From Pelomonas sp. Root1237 (lineage in GTDB: Bacteria; Pseudomonadota; Gammaproteobacteria; Burkholderiales; Burkholderiaceae_C), in the NCBI RefSeq assembly GCF_001425055.1, contig NZ_LMDK01000001.1, positions 261,845 through 325,844 of the forward strand: 64,000 nucleotides of DNA, read 5' to 3'. Position 1 is the stretch's first letter; each line of letters opens with the position of its first letter. The notes beneath the pieces were generated by a model. That model saw only the letters and a program-made list of their open reading frames with translations, ran no database searches and was not told the DNA's origin. Position numbers and translations under genes: made by a program. Shown here in pieces: positions 6,991 to 35,720 of this stretch.

Positions 6991-8285
6991 AGCAAGTAGC
7001 GGCAGTCACTCATCCCGTGTTTCGACCTCTTCCGGCAGGTTGGCGAATTGCATCGCTCGCTGAGATCACGGTCGAGAGTGCCGAGCGAAACAACGCCAAG
7101 TTGAACGACGCATTCCTTTTCGGGGTCAGCAAATCAGCTGGACTCATCCCGATGAGAGACCGAGTCAAGGGAGCGAGTACAGACCGGTGCAAGGTAGTTA
7201 AGCCGAATGCATTCGCATATAACCCAATGCGGATCAACATCGGCTCGATTGCACGAAACGAGACAGTCCACACCTTGATGGTTAGCCCTGACTACGTGGT
7301 GTTCGAAGCTCAAACAGAGTGCTTGCTGCCCGAGTACCTAGATCACTTTCGGAGGTCGCACGCCTGGCAGAGCTTTGTGGGTGCAGCCGGGGACGGGAGT
7401 GTGAGAGTCCGCATCTATTACGACCATCTCTCTCAGCTCAGACTGCCGCTTCCACCCCGCGTCGAGCAGCAAAAGATCGCGGCGATCTTGACGGCTGTGG
7501 ACGATAAGCTGGACGTGATTGCGCGCCAGATTGAAGCCACCCAGACCCTCAAGCAGGGCCTGATGCAGACGCTGTTCAGCCGGGGAGCAGGTACCCAAGA
7601 CGGCAGTGGCCGCTGGACTCCCCACGCTGAACAGAAGGCAACCACGATTGGCGCAGTCCCCGCCTCATGGGGCGTTGAGCCGCTCGACCGACATGTTTCG
7701 AAGGTAGGAAGCGGCGTTACTCCTAAAGGTGGAAGCACCTCCTATCAGAGCAGCGGTGTACCTCTCATCCGGAGCCAGAACGTCCTGGTGGGGCGACTGT
7801 CATTGGACGACGTCGCCTACATAGACGAGGTCCAACACGACAAGATGCGGAATTCGGCGTTGGAGCCTGAGGACGTGCTCTTGAACATTACTGGGGCGTC
7901 TATCGGGCGGTGTGCAGTGCTACCCCGCGACTTTTCAGAGGGCAACGTCAACCAGCACGTCTGCATCATCCGAACGCTGCCCAGCCTCAATCCGCACTTC
8001 CTCTGCCAGTACATCAACTCTTCCTCTGGCCAGAAGCAGGTAGCCAAGTTCCAAGCTGGTGGGAACAGGGAAGGGCTGAACTATCAGCAGGTGCGCTCCT
8101 TTGACGTGCCGGTCCCAAGCGGCGCCGAACAAGAGAAGATCGTTGACCTCCTGGAGGCATTTGACGGCAAGGTGCAATGTCTTGAGCGAAGCCAGTCGCA
8201 GCACCAGACTCTCAAACGCGGCCTGATGCAAAAGCTCCTGACCGGCGAATGGCGTGTCAAGGTCGACATCGAGATGGCGGCCTGA
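6987..8285 (+). CDS. hsdS: Type I restriction-modification specificity subunit
   Basis: A 432-residue HsdS with the standard two half-repeats. TRD1 spans about 1-160 and ends in the central coiled coil (VEQQKIAAILTAVDDKLDVI...QTLKQGLMQTLFSRG). TRD2 spans about 225-385 and ends in a similar coil (AEQEKIVDLLEAFDGKV...TLKRGLMQKLLTGEWR). Two TRDs imply a bipartite recognition sequence, which cannot be read from the protein. The GTG start overlaps the hsdM stop by four bases; the next gene starts five bases after the stop. Confidence 0.95.
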   Translation: MKQVAAVTHPVFRPLPAGWRIASLAEITVESAERNNAKLNDAFLFGVSKSAGLIPMRDRVKGASTDRCKVVKPNAFAYNPMRINIGSIARNETVHTLMVSPDYVVFEAQTECLLPEYLDHFRRSHAWQSFVGAAGDGSVRVRIYYDHLSQLRLPLPPRVEQQKIAAILTAVDDKLDVIARQIEATQTLKQGLMQTLFSRGAGTQDGSGRWTPHAEQKATTIGAVPASWGVEPLDRHVSKVGSGVTPKGGSTSYQSSGVPLIRSQNVLVGRLSLDDVAYIDEVQHDKMRNSALEPEDVLLNITGASIGRCAVLPRDFSEGNVNQHVCIIRTLPSLNPHFLCQYINSSSGQKQVAKFQAGGNREGLNYQQVRSFDVPVPSGAEQEKIVDLLEAFDGKVQCLERSQSQHQTLKRGLMQKLLTGEWRVKVDIEMAA

Positions 8286-27013: not shown

Positions 27014-27280
27014 AGGGCCTGCTAACACTACGGCAATGGGTCGCGTTGAGGCCAGAAAGGCCGCGAGCAAGGCGCAAAGCGGAGCCGGGTTGGCCACCCG
27101 GCGAGCACTTGCAACGCCGCGCGCGGCCTTTCTGGCCTCAACCCTTCGGGAAGACCCGTCGCCAGGGGCCACTCGGCGTTGCACCGCTTGCCCGCACATC
27201 AGTGCGGGCGGCGTGCTGCGCCTTGATTGGCCCCTGGCAGCGAGCCTTCGCGACCCATTGCCGTAGCGTTAACAGGCCCT
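27014..27280. mobile_element. 267-bp TIR element with two paired arms (copy 1)
   Basis: The ends are 32-bp inverted repeats with two mismatches, starting AGGGCCTG at 27014 and ending CAGGCCCT at 27280. Inside, a left arm has a perfect 21-bp stem (27045-27065 with 27122-27142) whose loop holds AAGGCGCAAA (27069-27078), a GCCGGGT/ACCCGGC hairpin (27084-27102) and TTGCAACG (27109-27116). A right arm (27161-27171 with 27228-27238) carries the same motifs inverted: CGTTGC at 27177 and GCGCCTT at 27218, around a GCCCGCAC/GTGCGGGC hairpin. No transposase is encoded. No target duplication is obvious. A second copy is at 34499-34766. Confidence 0.8.
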
Positions 27281-27376
27281 GGTCGGCGCAGACCTACAAC
27301 CGAACGGTCCGGCCGCCGACGGCGCGGCCGCAGCGGGTCGCCCATAGTGTCGGGGTCACATTGGACCGATCCCGAA

Positions 27377-27556
27377 ATGCCGCCCCGACAGAGATTCCAG
27401 CAATTGACCGCGGCCGTCCTGGTCGCCGTGGCTGGCCTGACCGCCTGTCGCAAGGAGGTGCCGCCACCGCCAAGGCCCGATGAGGTGCCCAGGCCCAAGG
27501 CGGCGGCCTCTTCGGCCTATGCCTTGCCCACCGCATATGCGCGGTTTGGCCGCTGA
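27377..27556 (+). CDS. Small lipoprotein
   Basis: A 59-residue protein with a lipoprotein signal peptide (LTAAVLVAVAGLTAC, lipidation Cys at about 24) and a short proline-rich tail (RKEVPPPPRPDEVPRPK). No known family was recognised; it lacks the GLKGPLY motif of LptM. It starts 97 bases after the inverted-repeat element and ends 21 bases before the Ku gene on the same strand. Confidence 0.65.
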   Translation: MPPRQRFQQLTAAVLVAVAGLTACRKEVPPPPRPDEVPRPKAAASSAYALPTAYARFGR

Positions 27557-27577
27557 GGCAAGCACCGAGGCAAAGAC

Positions 27578-28483
27578 ATGGCAGGCCCCAGCGCCAATCC
27601 CCGCGCCATCTGGAAGGGCGCCATCTCCTTTGGCCTTGTGCACGTGCCCGTGTCCTTGCACAGCGCCACGCAGGAGCAGGAGATCGATTTCGACTGGCTG
27701 GACAAGCGCAGCATGGACCCGGTGGGCTACAAGCGCATCAACAAGCGCACCGGCAAGGAGATCGCCAAGGAGCACATCGTCAAGGGCGTCAAGCTTGAGG
27801 GCGACGAGTACGTGGTGCTGTCCGACGACGAGATCAAGGCCGCCTACCCCAAGCGCACGCAGACCATCCAGATCGAGAACTTCGTCAAGGCGGCGGACGT
27901 GTCCTTCGTCTACATCGAGAAGCCTTACTACCTCGCGCCGGATGGCCGGGCCGACCGCGTCTATGCGCTGATGCGCGAGGCGCTGGAGAAGGCCGGTGTC
28001 ATCGGCATTGCGCGCTTCGTGCTGCACAACAAGGAGCACCTCGCGGCGCTGATCCCGGCCGGCCCGGCGTTGATGCTGGGCGTGCTGCGCTGGGCCGAGG
28101 AGATCCGCTCGCCCGATGCGCTGGACCTGCCTAAGGTGGGAGCCACCGGTGCCGCGGGCGTCAAGCCGGCCGAGTTGAAGATGGCCCAGCAGCTCATCAG
28201 CCAGATGACTGCGGCCTGGAAGCCCGAGAAGTTCAAGGACGACTTCACGAGCGCCATCCATGAGCTGGTCAAGCGCAAGGCCAAGGCCGGCAAGACGGCG
28301 ACCGTGCAGCCCTTCGAAGAGGCGCCGGACACGAGCAGCAGCAATGTCGTCGACCTGACCGAACTGCTGAAGCAGAGCTTGGGCGGCAAGGCGCGCAAGG
28401 CCGAGAAGGCGCCGGCGAAGAAGGCGGCAGCCAAGCCCGCGGCCAAGCGTGGCGTGGCAAACCGCGGCAGGAAGGCCGCGTGA
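27578..28483 (+). CDS. ku: Non-homologous end-joining protein Ku
   Basis: A 301-residue bacterial Ku, which binds DNA double-strand ends as a homodimer and recruits LigD. The N-terminus AIWKGAISFGLVHVPVSLHSA is diagnostic; the beta-barrel core runs to about 230 with YYLAPDGRADRVYALMREAL and ARFVLHNKEHLAAL. After residue 255 comes a lysine- and alanine-rich tail (KARKAEKAPAKKAAAKPAAK) like the DNA-binding extensions of other bacterial Ku proteins. No ligD is present in the window, so the ligase must lie elsewhere if the pathway is complete. Confidence 0.96.
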   Translation: MAGPSANPRAIWKGAISFGLVHVPVSLHSATQEQEIDFDWLDKRSMDPVGYKRINKRTGKEIAKEHIVKGVKLEGDEYVVLSDDEIKAAYPKRTQTIQIENFVKAADVSFVYIEKPYYLAPDGRADRVYALMREALEKAGVIGIARFVLHNKEHLAALIPAGPALMLGVLRWAEEIRSPDALDLPKVGATGAAGVKPAELKMAQQLISQMTAAWKPEKFKDDFTSAIHELVKRKAKAGKTATVQPFEEAPDTSSSNVVDLTELLKQSLGGKARKAEKAPAKKAAAKPAAKRGVANRGRKAA

Positions 28484-28582
28484 ATTCAGGCGCACCGGCG
28501 TCCTGCGGGAACACCTTTCGCCTGTGGTTCGACTGCACCGCCGAAGAGCCGCTGAGTTCTGCTCTGGTCCGCCGAAGGCAAG

Positions 28583-29506
28583 TCAAGAGCTGGCGGAGGC
28601 CTTATCGGTCAGCAGCTCCCATTCGCTGCGAAGGCCCTTGAGAGCGTAGTCGGCAAAGTGGCGTACGCGCGGGGCCAGATGCAATGCATGCGGGTACACG
28701 ACATGCAGCGGTGCGCTGGGGATGCCGTATCGGCCCAGCACGCGCACCAGCGTTCCATCCCTCAGCTCCGAGCCCACATCCCATATTGACTTGAGAAAGA
28801 TCCCGCCGCCGGCGAGCGCGAGTGCTTTGGCCGCGTTGCCGTCATTGCACAGGAAGGTCGCGTTCACCTCGGCCGAGACCGGTTTGCCTTCATGCTGGAA
28901 GAGCCAGTGCCGCGTGCTTCGCGTGCCGTAGAGGATGCAGTTGTGCGCTGAGAGCGCAGCAGGCGTGTCGGGAGAGCCGAAGCGCAGCAAATAGTCCGGC
29001 GCGGCGCACAGGACGAGCTCGCTGTCGGCGATGTGGCGTGCCGTCATCGTCGAGTCGTTGAGCACCCCGAAGCGCAGCGCCAGGTCAATGCCTTGTTCCA
29101 CGAGATCCACGACGTCGTCGCTCAAGACGATCTCGATCCGCAACGCCGGATGCATGGCCTGGAACTGCGCCGCCAGGGGGGCGAGATAGCGCGTGCCCAG
29201 CATGCGCGGTGCCGTCACCCGCAGGTGCCCGTTGATGTCGGTGCGGCTGTGCTGCATCACCACCTCGGCCTGCTGCACCTCCGCAAGGATGCGCACGCAA
29301 TGCAGGTGGAAGCGTTCGCCTTCCTGCGTCATGGACTGCCGCCGCGTGGTCCGGTTGAGCAGGCGAACGCCCATGCGCGCCTCGAGGGCGGCCAGGCGTT
29401 TGCTGACCACTGCCAGCGACAGGCCCAGCGCGTTCGCGGCCCCCGTGAGGCTGCCGGCACTGGCGACCTTGTCGAAGATCGTCAGCTCGGCCAGGTTGTC
29501 GATCAT
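28583..29506 (-). CDS. LysR-family transcriptional regulator
   Basis: A 307-residue LTTR of the CrgA/DsdC-like group: helix-turn-helix at 1-60 (FDKVASAGSLTGAANALGLSLAVVSKRLAALE, RLLNRTTR) and an effector domain with VTAPRMLGTRYLAPLAAQFQ. The ATG at 29506 has GGAA just upstream; another in-frame ATG nine bases earlier lacks such a site. It is divergent from the metallo-beta-lactamase-fold gene with about 97 bases between, so it probably controls that operon and itself. Confidence 0.92.
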   Translation of the reverse strand: MIDNLAELTIFDKVASAGSLTGAANALGLSLAVVSKRLAALEARMGVRLLNRTTRRQSMTQEGERFHLHCVRILAEVQQAEVVMQHSRTDINGHLRVTAPRMLGTRYLAPLAAQFQAMHPALRIEIVLSDDVVDLVEQGIDLALRFGVLNDSTMTARHIADSELVLCAAPDYLLRFGSPDTPAALSAHNCILYGTRSTRHWLFQHEGKPVSAEVNATFLCNDGNAAKALALAGGGIFLKSIWDVGSELRDGTLVRVLGRYGIPSAPLHVVYPHALHLAPRVRHFADYALKGLRSEWELLTDKASASS

Positions 29507-29545
29507 TGTTTCCATATCGTTGATTGTTAAATCTTGATCTCAGTC

Positions 29546-29574
29546 TTTATAAACAGGATGGCGATAAATATAGT
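29546..29574 (+). promoter_or_regulatory. Possible promoter of the hydrolase/peptidase operon
   Basis: TTTATA at 29546-29551 and TATAGT at 29569-29574 are 17 bases apart in the AT-rich gap between the LysR gene and its divergent neighbour. The -10 box is embedded in an imperfect dyad (GCGATAAA ... CATCGC, 29561-29586), a possible LysR contact site. The -35 match is weak. Confidence 0.4.
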
Positions 29575-29603
29575 GCTTTTCATCGCTTAACAGGAGCCTC
29601 ACG

Positions 29604-30584
29604 ATGAAACGCACATTCCTTGCCGCCTTTCTGGCCACCGCTGTCGCCACCAGCCTGGTCACCCCGGTCTCATCCGCGGCCGAGGCGCCTGCGACCAAGG
29701 TGAGCCGCTATCAAGCCGGCTACTACCACTTCAAGCTCGGCGACTTTGAGATCGCGGCGCTCTCCGACGGCACGCTTCCGATCCCCACGCTGAAGCTGCT
29801 GACCAACGTCCAGCCCGGTGAGGTGGCGTCGCGGCTGGCGGACACGTACCAGACGACCGAGGTCGATGCCTCGGTCAACGCTTACCTGATCCGGGCGGGC
29901 GACCGCCTGATCCTGATGGACGCCGGCACCGGCGAGCTCTACGGCCCGACGTTGAACAAGCTCGAGGCCAGCCTCAAGGCGGTGGGCGTCACGCCGGCGC
30001 AGATCACCGACATCCTGATCACGCATATCCACACCGACCACACCGGTGGCTTGATGGATGGCAAGCGCATCGTGTTTCCCAACGCCACGGTCCACATCGA
30101 GCAGGCGGAGGTCGCCTACTGGCTGAACCCCGAAAACCGCGCCCGCGCGCCGGAGGCGGCGAAGAAGTACTTCGACGAGGCTTCGGCCAAGGTGCAGCCC
30201 TATGTCGATGCCGGCAAGGTGAAGACGTTCTCTGGCGCGACCGAGCTGTTCGCCGGCATCCGTTCCGTACCCGCTCCGGGTCACACACCGGGCCACACGT
30301 TCTACGCGCTCGAGAGCAAGGGCGAGAAGCTGGTGTTCTGGGGCGACCTGGTTCACGTGGCGGAAGTCCAGATGCCCAACCCCGGCGTGACCATCGTCTT
30401 CGACGTCGATCCCAAGGCGGCCGCAGCTACGCGCAAGAAGGCGTTCGCCGACGCGGTCAAGGGCCGGTACTGGGTCGCGGCCGACCACATCTCCTTCCCC
30501 GGCGTCGGCCACCTGCGCCCCGATGGCGCGGGCTACCGGTGGATCCCCATGACCTACGTGAACGACCACTACGAGGCGAGGTGA
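29604..30584 (+). CDS. Exported metallo-beta-lactamase-fold hydrolase
   Basis: A 326-residue protein with a signal peptide (to about SSAAEA, residue 27) and the zinc-binding HIHTDH at 141-146, followed by later ligands in the APGHTPGHTFY stretch, DLVHVAEVQ and ADHISFPG. The arrangement resembles AHL-lactonase/MBL hydrolases that open lactones or hydrolyse esters; the substrate cannot be read. It forms an operon with the M28 peptidase gene, whose ATG is three bases beyond its stop. Control by the divergent LysR protein is likely. Confidence 0.88.
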   Translation: MKRTFLAAFLATAVATSLVTPVSSAAEAPATKVSRYQAGYYHFKLGDFEIAALSDGTLPIPTLKLLTNVQPGEVASRLADTYQTTEVDASVNAYLIRAGDRLILMDAGTGELYGPTLNKLEASLKAVGVTPAQITDILITHIHTDHTGGLMDGKRIVFPNATVHIEQAEVAYWLNPENRARAPEAAKKYFDEASAKVQPYVDAGKVKTFSGATELFAGIRSVPAPGHTPGHTFYALESKGEKLVFWGDLVHVAEVQMPNPGVTIVFDVDPKAAAATRKKAFADAVKGRYWVAADHISFPGVGHLRPDGAGYRWIPMTYVNDHYEAR

Positions 30585-30587
30585 ACC

Positions 30588-31973
30588 ATGGCCCAGCGGT
30601 TGCTGAATCACTGCGTGGCATTGCTGCTGGCCGCGTGTCTGGCAAGCCCTTCCGCGGGCGCTGAAACGCTGCCGGCCGCCGCAGCTGACGAAGCGACCGC
30701 CGTGCTCCTCAGGGAACGCGCGCTAGGGGACAGCGGGGCGTACAAGATCGTCGAATCACTGACCACGGAGGTCGGCGCACGCCCCGCCGGGTCGGAAGCC
30801 GACGCCCGCGCAGTGGCGTGGGCCGTGGCGAAGTTCCGCGCGCTGGGCTACGACAAGGTCTACACGGAGCCCGTCAAGTTCACGGCTTGGCGCCGGCTGT
30901 CTGAGAGCGCCGAGGTCATTGCGCCGATCACGCAGCGCCTTGCCGTGACCGCGCTGGGCAACAGCGTGGGAACCGACGGCCCGCTCGATGCCGAGATCGT
31001 GCGACTCCAGGACTTCGAAGCATTGCAGTCGGCGCCGGCCGAATCGGTGCGCGGCAGGATCGTCCTGCTCACCCGGCGCATGGAACGCGACCGCGATGGG
31101 TCGGGATACGCGCGGGTCCTGCAGATGCGCAGCAGTGCCGCCTCGCTGGCCGCCACGAAGGGCGCCGTGGCGCTGCTGATCAGGTCCTTGGGAACCGACG
31201 ACAACCGGCTGCCGCACACCGGCAGCGTGAACTACGTTCCCGGGAAGGCGATTCCGGCCGCTGCCATCTCGGGCCCGGATGCCGATCTCCTTGAAAGGCT
31301 GGGGCAGCGGACGCCCTCGGTACGGCTGCGCCTGAACATCGCGACGCAAACGCAAGCCGACAGCATCTCGTACAACGTGATTGGCGAGATCACCGGGCAA
31401 GACGCCAAGACGCCAAGGGGGGAGATCGTGATGATGTCTGCGCATCTCGACTCCTGGGATCTGGGCACGGGCGCTGTCGACGATGGGTTCGGCGTGGCCC
31501 TGACGATGGCAGCCGGGGCGTTGATCAAGCAGCTGCCCCAGGCACCCCGCCGCACGATCCGCGTGGTCCTGTTCGCCAACGAGGAGAACGGCTTCGATGG
31601 TGCACGCGCCTATGCGGCGCGCGATGCAGGCGATCTGTCGCGGCACTATCTGGCAATCGAGAGCGATTGGGGCGCAGGGCCCATCTACGCGTTGCGTCAT
31701 CCGCCGCAGAACGCTGGGCTCACGGCACGGCTGTCACGCGTGCTGGCTCCGCTGGGCATCACGCTCGACGGTGCCGCTGGCGCACCAGGACCGGACCTGG
31801 GCCTCCTGGCCCAGCGTGGCGTGCCGTGGATCCAGCTCGCACAGGATGCCACGGACCTCTTCGATCATCATCACAGCGCCAATGACACCTTGGACAAGAT
31901 CGACCCCGCGTCCTTGAACCAGAACGTCGCCGCCTACACGGCGTTTGCCTGGCTGGCAGCGAACGTGCCGTAG
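30588..31973 (+). CDS. Exported M28-family zinc aminopeptidase
   Basis: A 461-residue protein with a signal peptide (MAQRLLNHCVALLLAACLASPSAGA; a Cys at 17 could allow lipidation), an inserted PA-type domain (about 120-240) and an M28 catalytic domain. The dizinc residues are in HLDSWDLG (H286, D288), the AVDDGFGV stretch, FANEENG with its catalytic Glu pair, and HHHSANDT near the C-terminus. It would remove N-terminal amino acids or dipeptides in the periplasm. It is the second gene of the operon with the MBL-fold hydrolase. Confidence 0.9.
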   Translation: MAQRLLNHCVALLLAACLASPSAGAETLPAAAADEATAVLLRERALGDSGAYKIVESLTTEVGARPAGSEADARAVAWAVAKFRALGYDKVYTEPVKFTAWRRLSESAEVIAPITQRLAVTALGNSVGTDGPLDAEIVRLQDFEALQSAPAESVRGRIVLLTRRMERDRDGSGYARVLQMRSSAASLAATKGAVALLIRSLGTDDNRLPHTGSVNYVPGKAIPAAAISGPDADLLERLGQRTPSVRLRLNIATQTQADSISYNVIGEITGQDAKTPRGEIVMMSAHLDSWDLGTGAVDDGFGVALTMAAGALIKQLPQAPRRTIRVVLFANEENGFDGARAYAARDAGDLSRHYLAIESDWGAGPIYALRHPPQNAGLTARLSRVLAPLGITLDGAAGAPGPDLGLLAQRGVPWIQLAQDATDLFDHHHSANDTLDKIDPASLNQNVAAYTAFAWLAANVP

Positions 31974-32144
31974 ACCTGCGCAAGTTCGCCATCTCGGCGA
32001 GGAAACGGCGCTCAAGGCTGAACGGGCTACGGCAAAACTTGCCGCAAAGCCTTGCGCTCCCGGACGGGTCGCCCTCGTGGGGCGGCCACGACCGCGGGCA
32101 AGCCATGTGCCCATGCAGCGTTGAACTCGAAGCGGAAGACGACC

Positions 32145-32903
32145 ATGGACGGCCGTTGGATTCCCTATTGCGGCGAGGCGCCCGGCCCGGACGCCTGGCT
32201 GAGCCGATGGAACCTTGACCCGGTGCTCGGCACGGGCCTCGTGCTGCTGGCGCTGGCGCTGTGGCGGCTGTCGGCGGCGCGTGCCGCAACGCCCCGACAG
32301 CTGCGCTGTCTGCGCTGCGCGTGGACGTTGACGGGCCTGCTCTACGTGTCGCCGCTGTGCGCGCTGAGTTCGGCGTTCTTCACCGTCCGCGTGATCCATC
32401 ACATCGCCCTGGTGCTGGCGATCGCACCCTTGGTGGCCATCGGGCTGGAACGCTGGCTGCGCTGCCTGCCGACACCGCTGTGGGCGTGCACCGCCATCGC
32501 TTCCGTCACCTTCTGGACCTGGCATGCGCCGGCACCTTACGCGGCCGCCCTGTCGTCGGTGGCCCTGTACGCGCTCATGCAGCTCACACTGCTGGCCAGC
32601 GCGACCGCGTTCTGGGTCGCGGTGCGGCGCTCTGGCGCGGTCGCCGCAACCGGCGCCATCCTCGCCACGACGGTGCTGATGGGGCTGCTGGGTGCGCTGA
32701 TCACGTTCGCCGCGCGGCCGCTGTATGCGCCGCACTTCGCGTCGACGCTGAGCTGGGGCGTCTCGCCGCTGCAGGACCAGCAGCTCGCCGGCATCGTGAT
32801 GTGGGCGCCAGGCAGCATGGCCTACCTGGCGGCCGCGATGTGGATAGGCTGGCGTTGGATGCGCGCTGAACGTGCGCGCGGCCTGCGCACTGAGCCGGCA
32901 TGA
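32145..32903 (+). CDS. ctaG: Caa3-type cytochrome oxidase assembly protein CtaG
   Basis: A 252-residue membrane protein of the CtaG_caa3 type (not the Cox11 type), with about seven helices and conserved His pairs such as VRVIHHIALVLAIAPLV and TFWTWHAPAPYAAAL, followed by SPLQDQQLAGIVMWAPGSMAYL. The family is needed for active caa3 oxidase, probably for copper delivery to subunit I. The start ATG at 32145 gives an N-terminus seen in the family (MDGRWIPYCGEAP). Its stop overlaps the b561 gene start (ATGA). The caa3 genes coxB/coxA are 1.9 kb downstream. Confidence 0.88.
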   Translation: MDGRWIPYCGEAPGPDAWLSRWNLDPVLGTGLVLLALALWRLSAARAATPRQLRCLRCAWTLTGLLYVSPLCALSSAFFTVRVIHHIALVLAIAPLVAIGLERWLRCLPTPLWACTAIASVTFWTWHAPAPYAAALSSVALYALMQLTLLASATAFWVAVRRSGAVAATGAILATTVLMGLLGALITFAARPLYAPHFASTLSWGVSPLQDQQLAGIVMWAPGSMAYLAAAMWIGWRWMRAERARGLRTEPA

Positions 32904-33562
32904 GTCTCGTTGCCGCCATCGAATGGGCCGAGGGCCACCACCGGCGCGGCCTGTACTCGCCGATCGGCGTGGCGTTTCACTGGGCGATGGCGGCGCTGAT
33001 GATCTTCCAGCTGGGCTATGGCTGGTACCTGGGCTGGCAGCCGGCGGGCGGCGACAAATACCTCGGCTACCAGACCCACACGGAGGTGGGGCTGGCGATC
33101 ATGCTGCTGGGCACGCTGCGCTTCCTGTGGCGCAGCCAGATCGGCACGCCCGATACCGTCGACGAGTCGTCGTTCTCGGGCCGAGCCAGCCATGTGCTGG
33201 AGGTCTGGTTCTATTTCAGCTTCTTCGCGCTGCCGATCAGTGGCTGGGTGATGTGGTCCACGCTGCCCAGCAACCTGCCGCTGTCGATCGCCGGCGTGAT
33301 CCCCTTCCCCAACCTGCCGTTCGACCAGTTGTCCGAGGGCCTGCAGCACCGTCTGATGCAGTGGGCCGCCACGGCGCATGTCTGGGTCGTCTGGATCACG
33401 GCGCTGGCCATTCCCGGCCACGCCGGCGCGGCCGTGCTGCACTACGTGGTCAAGCGTGACCGTGTGCTGCCTTCGATGTTCGACCTCAACGGGCCGCAGG
33501 CGCCGGGTGTAGCGGGATCAGCGCCAGATAAAGGCTCAGCTGATGAACCTCCTCGGGCTTGA
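32900..33562 (+). CDS. Cytochrome b561-family protein
   Basis: A 220-residue membrane protein with four helices and histidines placed as in bacterial b561: SPIGVAFHWAMAALM, YQTHTEVGLAIMLLGTLRFLWR, ISGWVMWST and the later LMQWAATAHVWVVWITALAIPGHAGAAVLHY. It would carry two b haems and pass electrons between quinol and a periplasmic acceptor. It is translationally coupled to ctaG. Its 3' end overlaps by 77 bases the 3' end of a cytochrome c gene on the other strand. Confidence 0.88.
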   Translation: MSLVAAIEWAEGHHRRGLYSPIGVAFHWAMAALMIFQLGYGWYLGWQPAGGDKYLGYQTHTEVGLAIMLLGTLRFLWRSQIGTPDTVDESSFSGRASHVLEVWFYFSFFALPISGWVMWSTLPSNLPLSIAGVIPFPNLPFDQLSEGLQHRLMQWAATAHVWVVWITALAIPGHAGAAVLHYVVKRDRVLPSMFDLNGPQAPGVAGSAPDKGSADEPPRA

Positions 33563-34127
33563 GCCGTTGCGCCACGTTGAGCATTTCGTGGTTGCCGTCG
33601 TTGCGCCGCTTGGACACCTGCCAGTCCTGCAACTGCTGGGCGAGGTAGAAGGCCGGCTGGGCGTTCAGCGGGGGCCCCTTCGCGCTACCGACACCTTCGG
33701 CGCCGTGGCACTGCTGGCAGGCGGCGGTGTACAGCGCCGGAGTGGCCGCAGCAACGGCTTGCCCGGTGGCAGGCGGCAAGGCCCGTGGCGGCAGGCCGGC
33801 GTAGTAGTTGGCCACCCGCACGCGTTCATCGCTGTCCAGAAAGCGGGCCACGTCGCGCATGACCTCGTGCGCGCGCAGGCCCGCCGCGTAGTCTTCCATC
33901 TGCTTTTGCAGGTAGCCCACCGGCAGGCCGGCCAGGCGCGGGGCGTCAAAGCCATTGCCTTCGCCGCGCGCGCCGTGGCAGCTCACGCAGGCGTAGCGGG
34001 CGCCGCCTTCGCCACCGCTCATCGCGATGAGTTCGCCACCGCGGCCCCAGCGGTCGTCGCTGGGCGCCATGCGGTCGGTGCAGGCGGCGGCCAGCAGCAT
34101 GAGGATGAGAAGGTGCAGGTGGCGCAT
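33486..34127 (-). CDS. Dihaem c-type cytochrome lipoprotein
   Basis: A 213-residue protein with a lipoprotein signal (MRHLHLLILMLLAAAC, Cys16) and two haem c sites, CVSCH at 47-51 and CQQCH at 137-141. It is probably an electron donor or carrier on the periplasmic face of the inner membrane, resembling cytochrome c4-like tandem domains. It is the only minus-strand gene in the respiratory block. Its start codon overlaps the start of a divergent cytochrome c gene: CATG at 34125-34128 serves both. Confidence 0.88.
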   Translation of the reverse strand: MRHLHLLILMLLAAACTDRMAPSDDRWGRGGELIAMSGGEGGARYACVSCHGARGEGNGFDAPRLAGLPVGYLQKQMEDYAAGLRAHEVMRDVARFLDSDERVRVANYYAGLPPRALPPATGQAVAAATPALYTAACQQCHGAEGVGSAKGPPLNAQPAFYLAQQLQDWQVSKRRNDGNHEMLNVAQRLKPEEVHQLSLYLALIPLHPAPAAR

Positions 34128-34500
34128 GGCGGGTGAATCATCGTCCCTGGCAAGCATCGTGCTCGTCTGTGCCTGCCTCGCCGCCTGCGATGGCCCGCCC
34201 GACCGCACGCCAACGCTGGGCGACGCGAACGCCGCACGCGGCCGGCAGCTCGTCGCCGACAAGGGCTGCGTGGCCTGCCACACCTTCCCCGGCGTGAAAT
34301 GGCCGCGCGGCGGGCTGGGGCCGTCGCTGGAGAACTTCGGGCGCCAGAGCCTGATCGCAGGGCAATTGCCGAACCAGCCCGGCGTGTTGATGCAGTTCGT
34401 TCGCAATGCACCCGCGATGGTGCCCGGCACGGCCATGCCGGCCATTCCCATGTCCGACCAGGAAGCTCGCGATGTCACCGCCTACCTCCTCACGCTATAG
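34126..34500 (+). CDS. Monohaem c-type cytochrome lipoprotein
   Basis: A 124-residue protein with a lipoprotein signal (IVLVCACLAAC, Cys21) and one haem c site CVACH at 48-52. The distal methionine is probably in the late MPAIPMSDQEARDVTAYL segment. The small domain resembles cytochromes accompanying caa3-type oxidases. The final codon CTA is followed by TAG at 34498-34500, of which AG belongs to the inverted-repeat element that starts at 34499. The native C-terminus may once have been longer or had another stop. Confidence 0.85.
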   Translation: MAGESSSLASIVLVCACLAACDGPPDRTPTLGDANAARGRQLVADKGCVACHTFPGVKWPRGGLGPSLENFGRQSLIAGQLPNQPGVLMQFVRNAPAMVPGTAMPAIPMSDQEARDVTAYLLTL

Positions 34501-34766
34501 GGCCTGTCATCCTATGAATCCCCCCCGCGTGGCACCCCACAGAGCCTGCAATCTAGGCGCAAACCGCAGCCGGGGTGGGGCCCCGGCGAGGATTTGCAAC
34601 GACGAGTGCAGGCTCTGTGGGGCGCCACCCGAAGGGCCGGGGCTGCAAGGGGCGCCCCGCGTCGTTGCGAACCTAGGTCGGGGAAGGGCCCCGACCGTCG
34701 GCTCGCGCCTAGCGCTGCACCCCTTGCAGCCCCGGCGCGGGGGAGATTCATAGGATGACAGGCCCT
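34499..34766. mobile_element. 268-bp TIR element with two paired arms (copy 2)
   Basis: Inverted ends of 31 bp with one mismatch start AGGGCCTGTCATCC at 34499 and finish at 34766. The left arm is a 22-bp stem with one mismatch (34529-34550 with 34607-34628). The right arm is a perfect 16-bp stem (34637-34652 with 34720-34735). Both loops keep the motifs of copy 1: AGGCGCAAA (34555-34563) with TTGCAACG (34594-34601), and inverted CGTTGC (34663) with GCGCCT (34705). The stem sequences differ almost completely from copy 1 although pairing is kept. Flanking TA on both sides (34497 area and 34766-34767) could be a target duplication. Confidence 0.82.
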
Positions 34767-35720
34767 AACCTCGCTGAGGCCCTGAGCGGCTGGCCGCCGC
34801 CGGTGCTCGATCCGCACGGGCCGTTCTCCAACTCGGTCACCACGCTGGCCTGGGTGCTGATCGCGCTCGTCACATTGATCTTTCTGGGCGTCTGCGCGGC
34901 GATGTGGGTGGCGCTGTACGGCAGTGACGAGCTCCGCGCCCGGCTCGGCGGCGAGCGCGTCGTCAAGTGGTTCGGCCTGATCATCCCGGCCGGCGTGCTG
35001 CTGCTGCTGCTGGCCTGGGGCCTCACGCTGGTCGCCGGCATGTCCACCATCAAGGGCGACGAGCTGCGCATGCGCGTGTCCGGCAACATCTACTGGTGGC
35101 GCGTGTCCTACCTCGATGCGGCGGGCCGCGCGATCCTGGCTGACGCCAACGAACTGCACATCCCGGTCGGCCGCCCGGTCGTTGTCGACATGGTCTCGGA
35201 GGACGTCATCCACAGCTTCTGGGTGCCCAAGCTGGGCGGCAAGATGGACATGATCCCGGGCCGCACCAACCGGCTCAAGCTGCAGGCCGACAAGGCGGGC
35301 GTCTACGGCGGGCAATGCGCCGAGTTCTGCGGCGGCGCGCATGCGCTGATGGGCTTCGTCGTCGTCGCGCATGAGGCGGCGGACTGGCAGCGGTGGCTCG
35401 ATGCACGCCTGAAGCCGGCCCCTGAGACCAATGTCAGCGTCGAGGCGCTGCGCGGCAAGCAACTTTTCAACGAGGTTGGCTGCGCGGCCTGCCACCGCGT
35501 CGCCGGCACCTCGGCACAAGGCGTGTCCGGGCCTGACCTGACCTTCGTCGGCGCGCGCCAGTCCCTGGGCGCCGGCATCCTGCCGAACACGCGCGCCACG
35601 CTGATTGGCTGGATCGGCGACAGCCAGTCGATCAAGCCGAACAACCGCATGCCCGCCTACCGCTCGTTGAAGGCGGCCGAGCTGAACGCACTGGCCAGCT
35701 ACATGGAGTCGTTGAAGTGA
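34755..35720 (+). CDS. coxB: Cytochrome c oxidase subunit II with fused cytochrome c (caa3 type)
   Basis: A 321-residue subunit II. Two N-terminal helices (about 25-50 and 75-97) are followed by the cupredoxin domain with CuA ligands H153, C188, E190, C192, H196 and M199 (GQCAEFCGGAHALM). A C-terminal cytochrome c domain carries CAACH at 243-247. This defines a caa3 oxidase that accepts electrons directly from a c-type cytochrome. The only usable start after an in-frame TAG at 34710 is the ATG at 34755, inside the right terminal repeat of the mobile element, which also holds the GGGGGAG upstream. The stop overlaps the coxA GTG start (GTGA). Confidence 0.93.
   Translation: MTGPNLAEALSGWPPPVLDPHGPFSNSVTTLAWVLIALVTLIFLGVCAAMWVALYGSDELRARLGGERVVKWFGLIIPAGVLLLLLAWGLTLVAGMSTIKGDELRMRVSGNIYWWRVSYLDAAGRAILADANELHIPVGRPVVVDMVSEDVIHSFWVPKLGGKMDMIPGRTNRLKLQADKAGVYGGQCAEFCGGAHALMGFVVVAHEAADWQRWLDARLKPAPETNVSVEALRGKQLFNEVGCAACHRVAGTSAQGVSGPDLTFVGARQSLGAGILPNTRATLIGWIGDSQSIKPNNRMPAYRSLKAAELNALASYMESLK

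Follow-up and report, generated by a model that had tools for sequence, protein, structure and literature searches.

The window analysed here, a stretch of 64,000 nucleotides from Pelomonas sp. Root1237 (assembly GCF_001425055.1, contig NZ_LMDK01000001.1, positions 261,845 to 325,844), harbors two short inverted-repeat elements, one located upstream of a Ku gene (element 1) and the other between a cytochrome c gene and coxB (element 2). Both were found where a first-pass annotation of the sequence had placed them, with lengths of 267 and 268 bp and the ends AGGGCCTG/CAGGCCCT. They form two-armed inverted-repeat structures with DNA folding energies of -118.6 kcal/mol for element 1 and -119.3 kcal/mol for element 2; none of 200 shuffled sequences folded as well in either case (z = -14.2 and -14.6). 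A transposase gene of their own is absent from both, and the open reading frames (ORFs) of at least 100 amino acids crossing them are short or overlap neighboring genes. The motifs AGGCGCAAA and TTGCAACG are present in the left arm of both elements. The right arm had been described as carrying the same motifs inverted; AGGCGC and GCAACG are indeed kept there in inverted form, but the motifs do not recur as exact copies, and their AAA/TTT part belongs to a varying helix. A core pattern, GGCGCAAA-N-TTGCAACG, matched twice in the window and in none of 100 shuffles.

Sequence alignment A1 was built from 58 of 80 non-redundant pattern matches, picked by eye, with 16 matches left out as unstructured chance matches and six as near-duplicates. 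Its covariation score was 0.585 as compared to 0.154 in shuffled and at most 0.146 in slid controls; 91% of the cells were paired, and both sides had changed in 386 cells versus 139.6 in shuffles. Because the rows of A1 were hand-picked, the pairing test was rerun on all 28 copies found in the genome of strain Root1237 by the motif only. The arms of these unselected copies were paired to 86% on average (minimum 69%), as compared to 58% after swapping right arms between copies (maximum 67% in 1000 rounds), and the arms of different copies had a mean identity of only 50%. In genome G152, 30 of 62 copies gave 78% pairing in place and 52% after swapping (maximum 62%). The family keeps the hairpin shape of one strand while its sequence changes, and the selection on secondary structure proposed in the first-pass annotation is strongly supported by the A1 covariation and by the 86% versus 58% pairing.

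Each hairpin carries a similar motif at its tip. The motif consists of AGGCGC / GCAACG, letters which the search pattern dictated in part, together with a helix that covaries, the loops CRCAG / CGAG, and an end stem that varies. The pattern used for A1 fixed GCGCAAA and TTTGCAACG; therefore, the constancy of these letters proves nothing. Free yet nearly constant were the AG preceding the fixed letters (58/58), the C-G pair closing the motif (56/58), and the CAG / GAG loops. Inspection by eye revealed other but still paired letters in the AAA/TTT helix of further copies, and the distant matches at loci L204, L209, and L216 retain only AAGGC and AACG. Covariance model R1 scored four cores in the window, two per element in opposite orientations, one of which came from the training set. 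A search of Rfam gave no match above gathering score in the window and no match to an element in seven further loci; two matches of element 2 to microRNA families were both far below gathering score. At a Roseibium locus (L126), the Rfam small RNA BjrC1505 matched positions 7911-8000 of the minus strand, apart from the element.

The core pattern matched 28 times in the 6.4-Mb genome of strain Root1237, its reversed control not at all. Shortened by one base, the pattern matched 130 of the 200 same-family genomes examined; its reversed control had no more than two matches per genome. Copy numbers obtained with the shortened pattern reached 147 in genome G025, 74 in G135, 63 in G152, 26 in G156, and 16 in G046; low counts per genome include chance matches, as judged by eye for example in G031. 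A covariance-model search had been suggested in the first-pass annotation, and model R1, with up to 15 candidates scored per genome, matched at least 63 of 299 genomes of the phylum Pseudomonadota (raw count, E up to 1e-4). At least six of these belong to the same family, at least five to other families of the order, at least seven to the rest of the class, and at least 45 to the rest of the phylum, i.e., at least 57 are located outside the family.

Sorting of the 28 copies by eye yielded a two-arm class A with about 11 members including element 1, a two-arm class with loci L017 and L027, element 2 standing alone, and several one-arm classes. Members of a class resemble each other in ends, arms, and end stem, whereas the classes differ in these, again by eye. 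The stems of elements 1 and 2 thus differ, as had been noted, yet they are not without relatives, as element 1 is one of about 11 class A copies. Likewise, the remark that ordinary miniature inverted-repeat transposable elements (MITEs) keep their sequence has to be refined: stem sequence is similar inside a class, and the compensated divergence lies between classes. Elements occur in a form of about 163 bp with one core and a form of about 268 bp with two inverted cores. Automatic delimiting found ends for 136 of 155 copies, many one-arm copies measuring about 160-170 bp and two-arm copies about 265-275 bp; 19 copies remained without delimited ends, and for several of the delimited copies the length is probably wrong. 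The same length groups were also seen in loci of other orders and classes, e.g., in Roseibium (L126).

A core subtype with GACAGTAC and a GTACGGC-like end stem occurs near gene ends (L116, L083, L012, and places in G013), in places seemingly without long terminal repeats; the L116 core lies beside an apparent groEL gene, as judged by eye. This subtype is possibly a non-mobile relative. At six loci of genome G135 (L261, L265, L271, L300, L301, and L307), elements of the TGTAGTG class directly follow GACAGGCT-like ends of another element, which suggests nested insertion. A further class in G152 (L374, L383, L391, L394, L396, and L397) has left ends like CCTAAATCCGGCAGTTG and a right end unlike a terminal inverted repeat.

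Occupied and empty sites were compared for element 2, as the first-pass annotation had proposed. Among 19 congeners searched, three had an orthologous coxB (90-97% identity), and the element was missing from all three; element 2 is an insertion of this lineage. In these congeners, the cytochrome c frame reads through CTCAAGCC to a TGA located three codons later than the TAG found here. Thus, within positions 34498-34757, element 2 provides both the TAG at which the cytochrome c gene now ends, three residues earlier than in the congeners, and the first start codon of the coxB frame.

An insertion sequence with the same ends was found for the class of element 1. Locus L193, located in the same genome where contig C1 ends, contains a DDE_Tnp_1_2 insertion sequence with the ends AGGGCCTGTTAACACTA, which are identical in 17 of 17 positions to class A copies such as L026 and match either end of element 1 in 16 of 17. 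An annotated IS5 family transposase element of Polaromonas sp. JS666 shares 78.6% identity with the L193 insertion sequence over the whole length of the latter (825 bp); one translation of L193 contains stop codons. Its first bases occur twice, 162 bp apart (L193 786-964), at a contig end with an N, which reflects either a partial copy or an assembly effect. Two insertion sequences of G152, which, going by Pfam, are taken to be of IS5 type, have one end each in common with elements, namely L194 with GAACGTGTTTACGATCT, as on L199, and L191 with TAAGAACTTATCCGT, as on L068. Hence, three of the five PF13586 loci fetched have ends matching elements. No credible core was found in any of the five, the best match having an E value of 2.9. 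The mobile, non-autonomous nature proposed for the elements is supported by the empty site of element 2 and by the end match of L193. By eye, target-like duplications, TNA or YTAR, flank other copies on both sides; a duplication at element 2 was not cleanly readable. In the TCA class (ends GAACCTGTGAATG / GAGGCTGAGAG), both sides are alike (TCA and TCA) in 28 of 45 copies. Carriage by plasmids or phages was rejected, with at most one plasmid match per element searched: element 1 matched one plasmid record at 67.6% identity, a TGTAGTG-class element gave a single plasmid match of 53 bases, a BLAST search of element 2 against plasmids gave no match, and a TCA-class element had none among plasmids or phages.

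Palindromes acting as duplex should have strand-symmetric mismatches. Such symmetry was not observed. Under a filter admitting Watson-Crick pairs only, G.T exceeded A.C in 36 of 53 arm clusters, which are partly related by descent and not fully independent, and the reverse was found in four; G.A exceeded C.T by 40 clusters to three, or by 21 to four if the one pair that is often G.A is omitted. Among 78 distinct one-arm elements, the drawn strand folded better than its complement in 77 with RNA parameters and in all 78 with DNA parameters. The mean energy with RNA parameters was -105.8 kcal/mol for the drawn strand and -84.8 kcal/mol for the complement, a difference of about 21 kcal/mol. Two-arm elements, which carry one core per strand, were balanced, with the drawn strand better in 17 of 32. 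The length windows of this comparison (155-175 and 262-277) were preset, so that it is no proof of constant length. The stem filter used in delimiting and in the fold comparison counts G.T pairs; as a check, cores from six genomes were analyzed without it, and the polarity was found in 127 of 135 cores and in 113 of 115 if no second core followed downstream. For mutated perfect palindromes, used as a null, the numbers were 37 of 60 and a mean of -2.1 kcal/mol. Almost no polarity comes from the core by itself (41/68, -0.4 kcal/mol). In the outer 22 bases, 85 G.T stood against 13 A.C in one-arm elements (45 clusters), whereas two-arm elements were hardly polarized (18 to 12 in 30 clusters). From this asymmetry, the fold of one strand looks selected in one-core elements.

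Furthermore, the position of the copies relative to genes was determined for 119 of the 136 delimited copies using a codon model trained on this window. In 64 of the 119 copies, a called gene has its stop codon at one or both ends (43 right only, 12 left only, and nine both; a raw count without a chance rate). For 30 of 34 TCA-class copies, a minus-strand gene stops at the right end of the element; 26 of these have a stop codon there only, and four have one at the left end too. A stop codon at the left end only was found in no copy, and four copies had none at either end. One of the 30 right-end cases, L087, appeared by eye to be rather a plus-strand gene start. A separate count of 45 TCA-class copies gave TCA at the left side of 41 copies and at the right side of 30, and TGA at neither side of any; an ORF of at least 70 codons stopped at the right-hand side of 31 and at the left-hand side of none. 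Where both neighbors of a TCA-class copy were co-directional, 13 copies were antisense and one was sense; the remaining 20 were mixed or uncalled. The mostly two-arm GGCCTG class showed no side preference (left five, right four, both two, neither seven; n = 18). The TCA class being antisense to the abutting gene argues against a common function in the mRNA of the neighbor; a function at the 3' end of mRNA for all classes is disfavored by this orientation. The features of the window are listed in Table 1.

Table 1. Elements, core hairpins, and neighboring genes, with positions in the window.
Feature	Position	Strand	Description	Evidence
Element 1	27014..27280 (267 bp)		two-arm, class A; upstream of Ku gene	sequence; fold z -14.2; class A copies in same genome
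Left terminal repeat, element 1	27014..27030	+	AGGGCCTGCTAACACTA	16/17 identical to end of IS5-family insertion sequence in locus L193
Right terminal repeat, element 1	27264..27280	-		16/17 identical to same L193 insertion-sequence end
Core hairpin 1, element 1 (AGGCGC..GCAACG)	27054..27134	+	outside training set	R1 77.7 bits, E 3.4e-19
Core hairpin 2, element 1	27159..27239	- (opposite orientation)		R1 57.5 bits, E 1.6e-13
Ku gene	27578-28483		downstream neighbor of element 1	
Element 2	34499..34766 (268 bp)		two-arm, inserted between cytochrome c gene and coxB	fold; empty sites in three congeners
Core hairpin 1, element 2	34539..34619	+	member of training set	R1 86.8 bits, E 9.9e-22
Core hairpin 2, element 2	34645..34726	- (opposite orientation)	outside training set	R1 42.2 bits, E 3.3e-9
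Cytochrome c gene	34027..34500	+	present stop TAG 34498-34500 overlaps left end of element 2	Pfam Cytochrom_C
coxB, cytochrome c oxidase subunit II	34755..35720	+	first ATG of open frame (34755) in right end of element 2	TIGR02866 CoxB

Taken together, we assume with a probability of about 0.5 that the elements form a superfamily of short non-autonomous mobile elements in which a folded single strand, more likely of DNA, is at work. The data suggest that this folded strand is recognized by the cell or its transposases. Each class has its own terminal repeats; three classes share ends with three different DDE_Tnp_1_2 insertion sequences, and therefore at least those three are probably moved in trans by such transposases. 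The drawn strand may function single-stranded, with even chances for DNA and lower ones for RNA. The preference for DNA rests on one class in which the element is antisense to the gene at whose stop codon it is located. The tip motif may be the docking site of a putative protein aiding excision, insertion or survival of the element, and two-core elements, having one well-folding arm per strand, might work in either orientation. A more specific version, namely a folded-DNA mobility system with a common core read by a putative protein via the AGGCGC/GCAACG loop, ends taken from different IS5-type insertion sequences, and a TCA class inserted in a single orientation and for the most part precisely after stop codons, is considered rather doubtful.

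Several observations weigh against a folded DNA strand as the working form. DDE transposases normally act on duplex ends and need no folded single strand; the end match and the strand polarity thus point to different machineries. Accordingly, the movement as a folded single strand proposed in the first-pass annotation is only a possibility: the strand polarity agrees with it, whereas the matching ends indicate a DDE transposase. The single-stranded DNA step and the docking protein are purely inferred, the purine-rich internal loops would suit RNA as well, and the rows of A1 were selected by eye. For the two elements of the window, the complement folds better by 14-15 kcal/mol with RNA parameters (-216.1 versus -201.2 and -227.5 versus -213.5 kcal/mol). 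With respect to replication, the copies showed no clear orientation: in G152, 25 of 31 copies right of dnaA are on the minus strand, and 15 plus and 16 minus copies are found left of it, the position of the terminus being assumed. The partners are incomplete as well: L192 and L195, the other two of the five PF13586 loci, have no matching ends, the ends of the TCA class are on none of the insertion sequences fetched, and a partner with the ends of element 2 was not found in 80 genomes, in which this end (up to two mismatches) occurs only in the genome of strain Root1237 and there only as the two ends of the element itself. Genomes G135 and G156, with 74 and 26 copies, gave no PF13586 match. PF13586 insertion sequences were therefore rejected as a universal partner, the search being limited to this family.

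It is possible that the drawn strand is instead transcribed and the hairpin acts as an RNA motif, be it an mRNA end, a processing site or a small RNA, that insertion sequences have spread. The covariation and the wobble or G.A pairs on one strand speak for such a structured RNA, the 64 of 119 copies with a gene stop codon at an element end (without a chance rate) fit it, and two-arm copies would serve transcripts from either side. However, 30 of 34 TCA-class copies have a right-hand gene that is transcribed antisense to the drawn strand, co-directional neighbors were antisense in 13 cases and sense in one, Rfam gave no match, and inspection by eye, without a promoter scan, revealed no promoter-like sequence in the GC-rich arms. 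The elements might also be ordinary MITEs, of which the duplex terminal repeats alone matter and the shared core is passenger DNA from one ancestor. We consider this improbable: ends matching insertion sequences, the target-like duplications TNA and YTAR, and similar stem sequences within classes (the latter two seen by eye) agree with it, but covariation between classes, similar tip loops, and strand polarity are not predicted.

Equally improbable appears a system like that of REPINs, the hairpin doublets formed from repetitive extragenic palindromic (REP) sequences, in which a tyrosine (Y1/RAYT) transposase would move the elements as single strand. Hairpins with compensatory changes occurring as singlets and inverted doublets, as described for REPINs (PMC3116915), would fit this explanation. 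So would the fixed orientation of the TCA class (a left-hand TCA in 41 of 45 copies and no TGA on either side) and the Y1_Tnp matches in nine of 12 hosts searched. On the other hand, G025, G152, and G046 with 147, 63, and 16 copies had no PF01797 match at E 0.001, 15 Y1_Tnp loci had no core in the flanks fetched, which were up to 1.5 kb per side, and the ends are of IS5 type. RAYT/IS200 as a general mover was rejected on account of these three many-copy hosts without a Y1_Tnp match and the lack of a core beside all 15 Y1 loci.

With up to 147 copies per genome, free sequence, and a strand-specific fold that is kept, the superfamily would make the role of a folded single strand in DDE-type elements testable in soil and water bacteria. 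Additionally, the covariance model can annotate bacterial repeats which sequence-based search may split or miss. The second core of element 2, which is outside the training set, scored 42.2 bits, although the ends of this element are present in one of 80 genomes and BLAST finds no plasmid match.

Among open PMC papers, judged by title and start of the abstract, no published description of these elements was found, and five core strings were absent from the open PMC literature. The elements resemble IS5-family MITEs in being short, non-coding, and present in many copies with an empty site, and the terminal inverted repeats of class A are those of an IS5-family insertion sequence. They differ in having one structured core across classes with different ends, covarying stems, and a strand bias of the one-core form. 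A conserved fold over variable sequence, with one strand preferred for folding, is also known from integron attC sites. The nearest published parallel is the REPINs, described as hairpin doublets with compensatory changes (PMC3116915; for REPs, PMC2817692). Both systems are hairpin-forming, non-autonomous, and extragenic, occur as single and inverted-doublet forms, and show compensatory changes, whereas the elements described here have 163-268 bp, IS5-type ends, an internal-loop motif at the tip, and high copy numbers in hosts without a Y1_Tnp match. The GTAG-type 5' tag given for REPs in PMC2817692 is not located at elements 1 and 2, which begin with AGGGCCTG; the TGTAGTG class contains GTAG inside its end. 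In summary, the elements are MITE-like with a conserved, strand-specific fold, and it is the strand specificity that is new.

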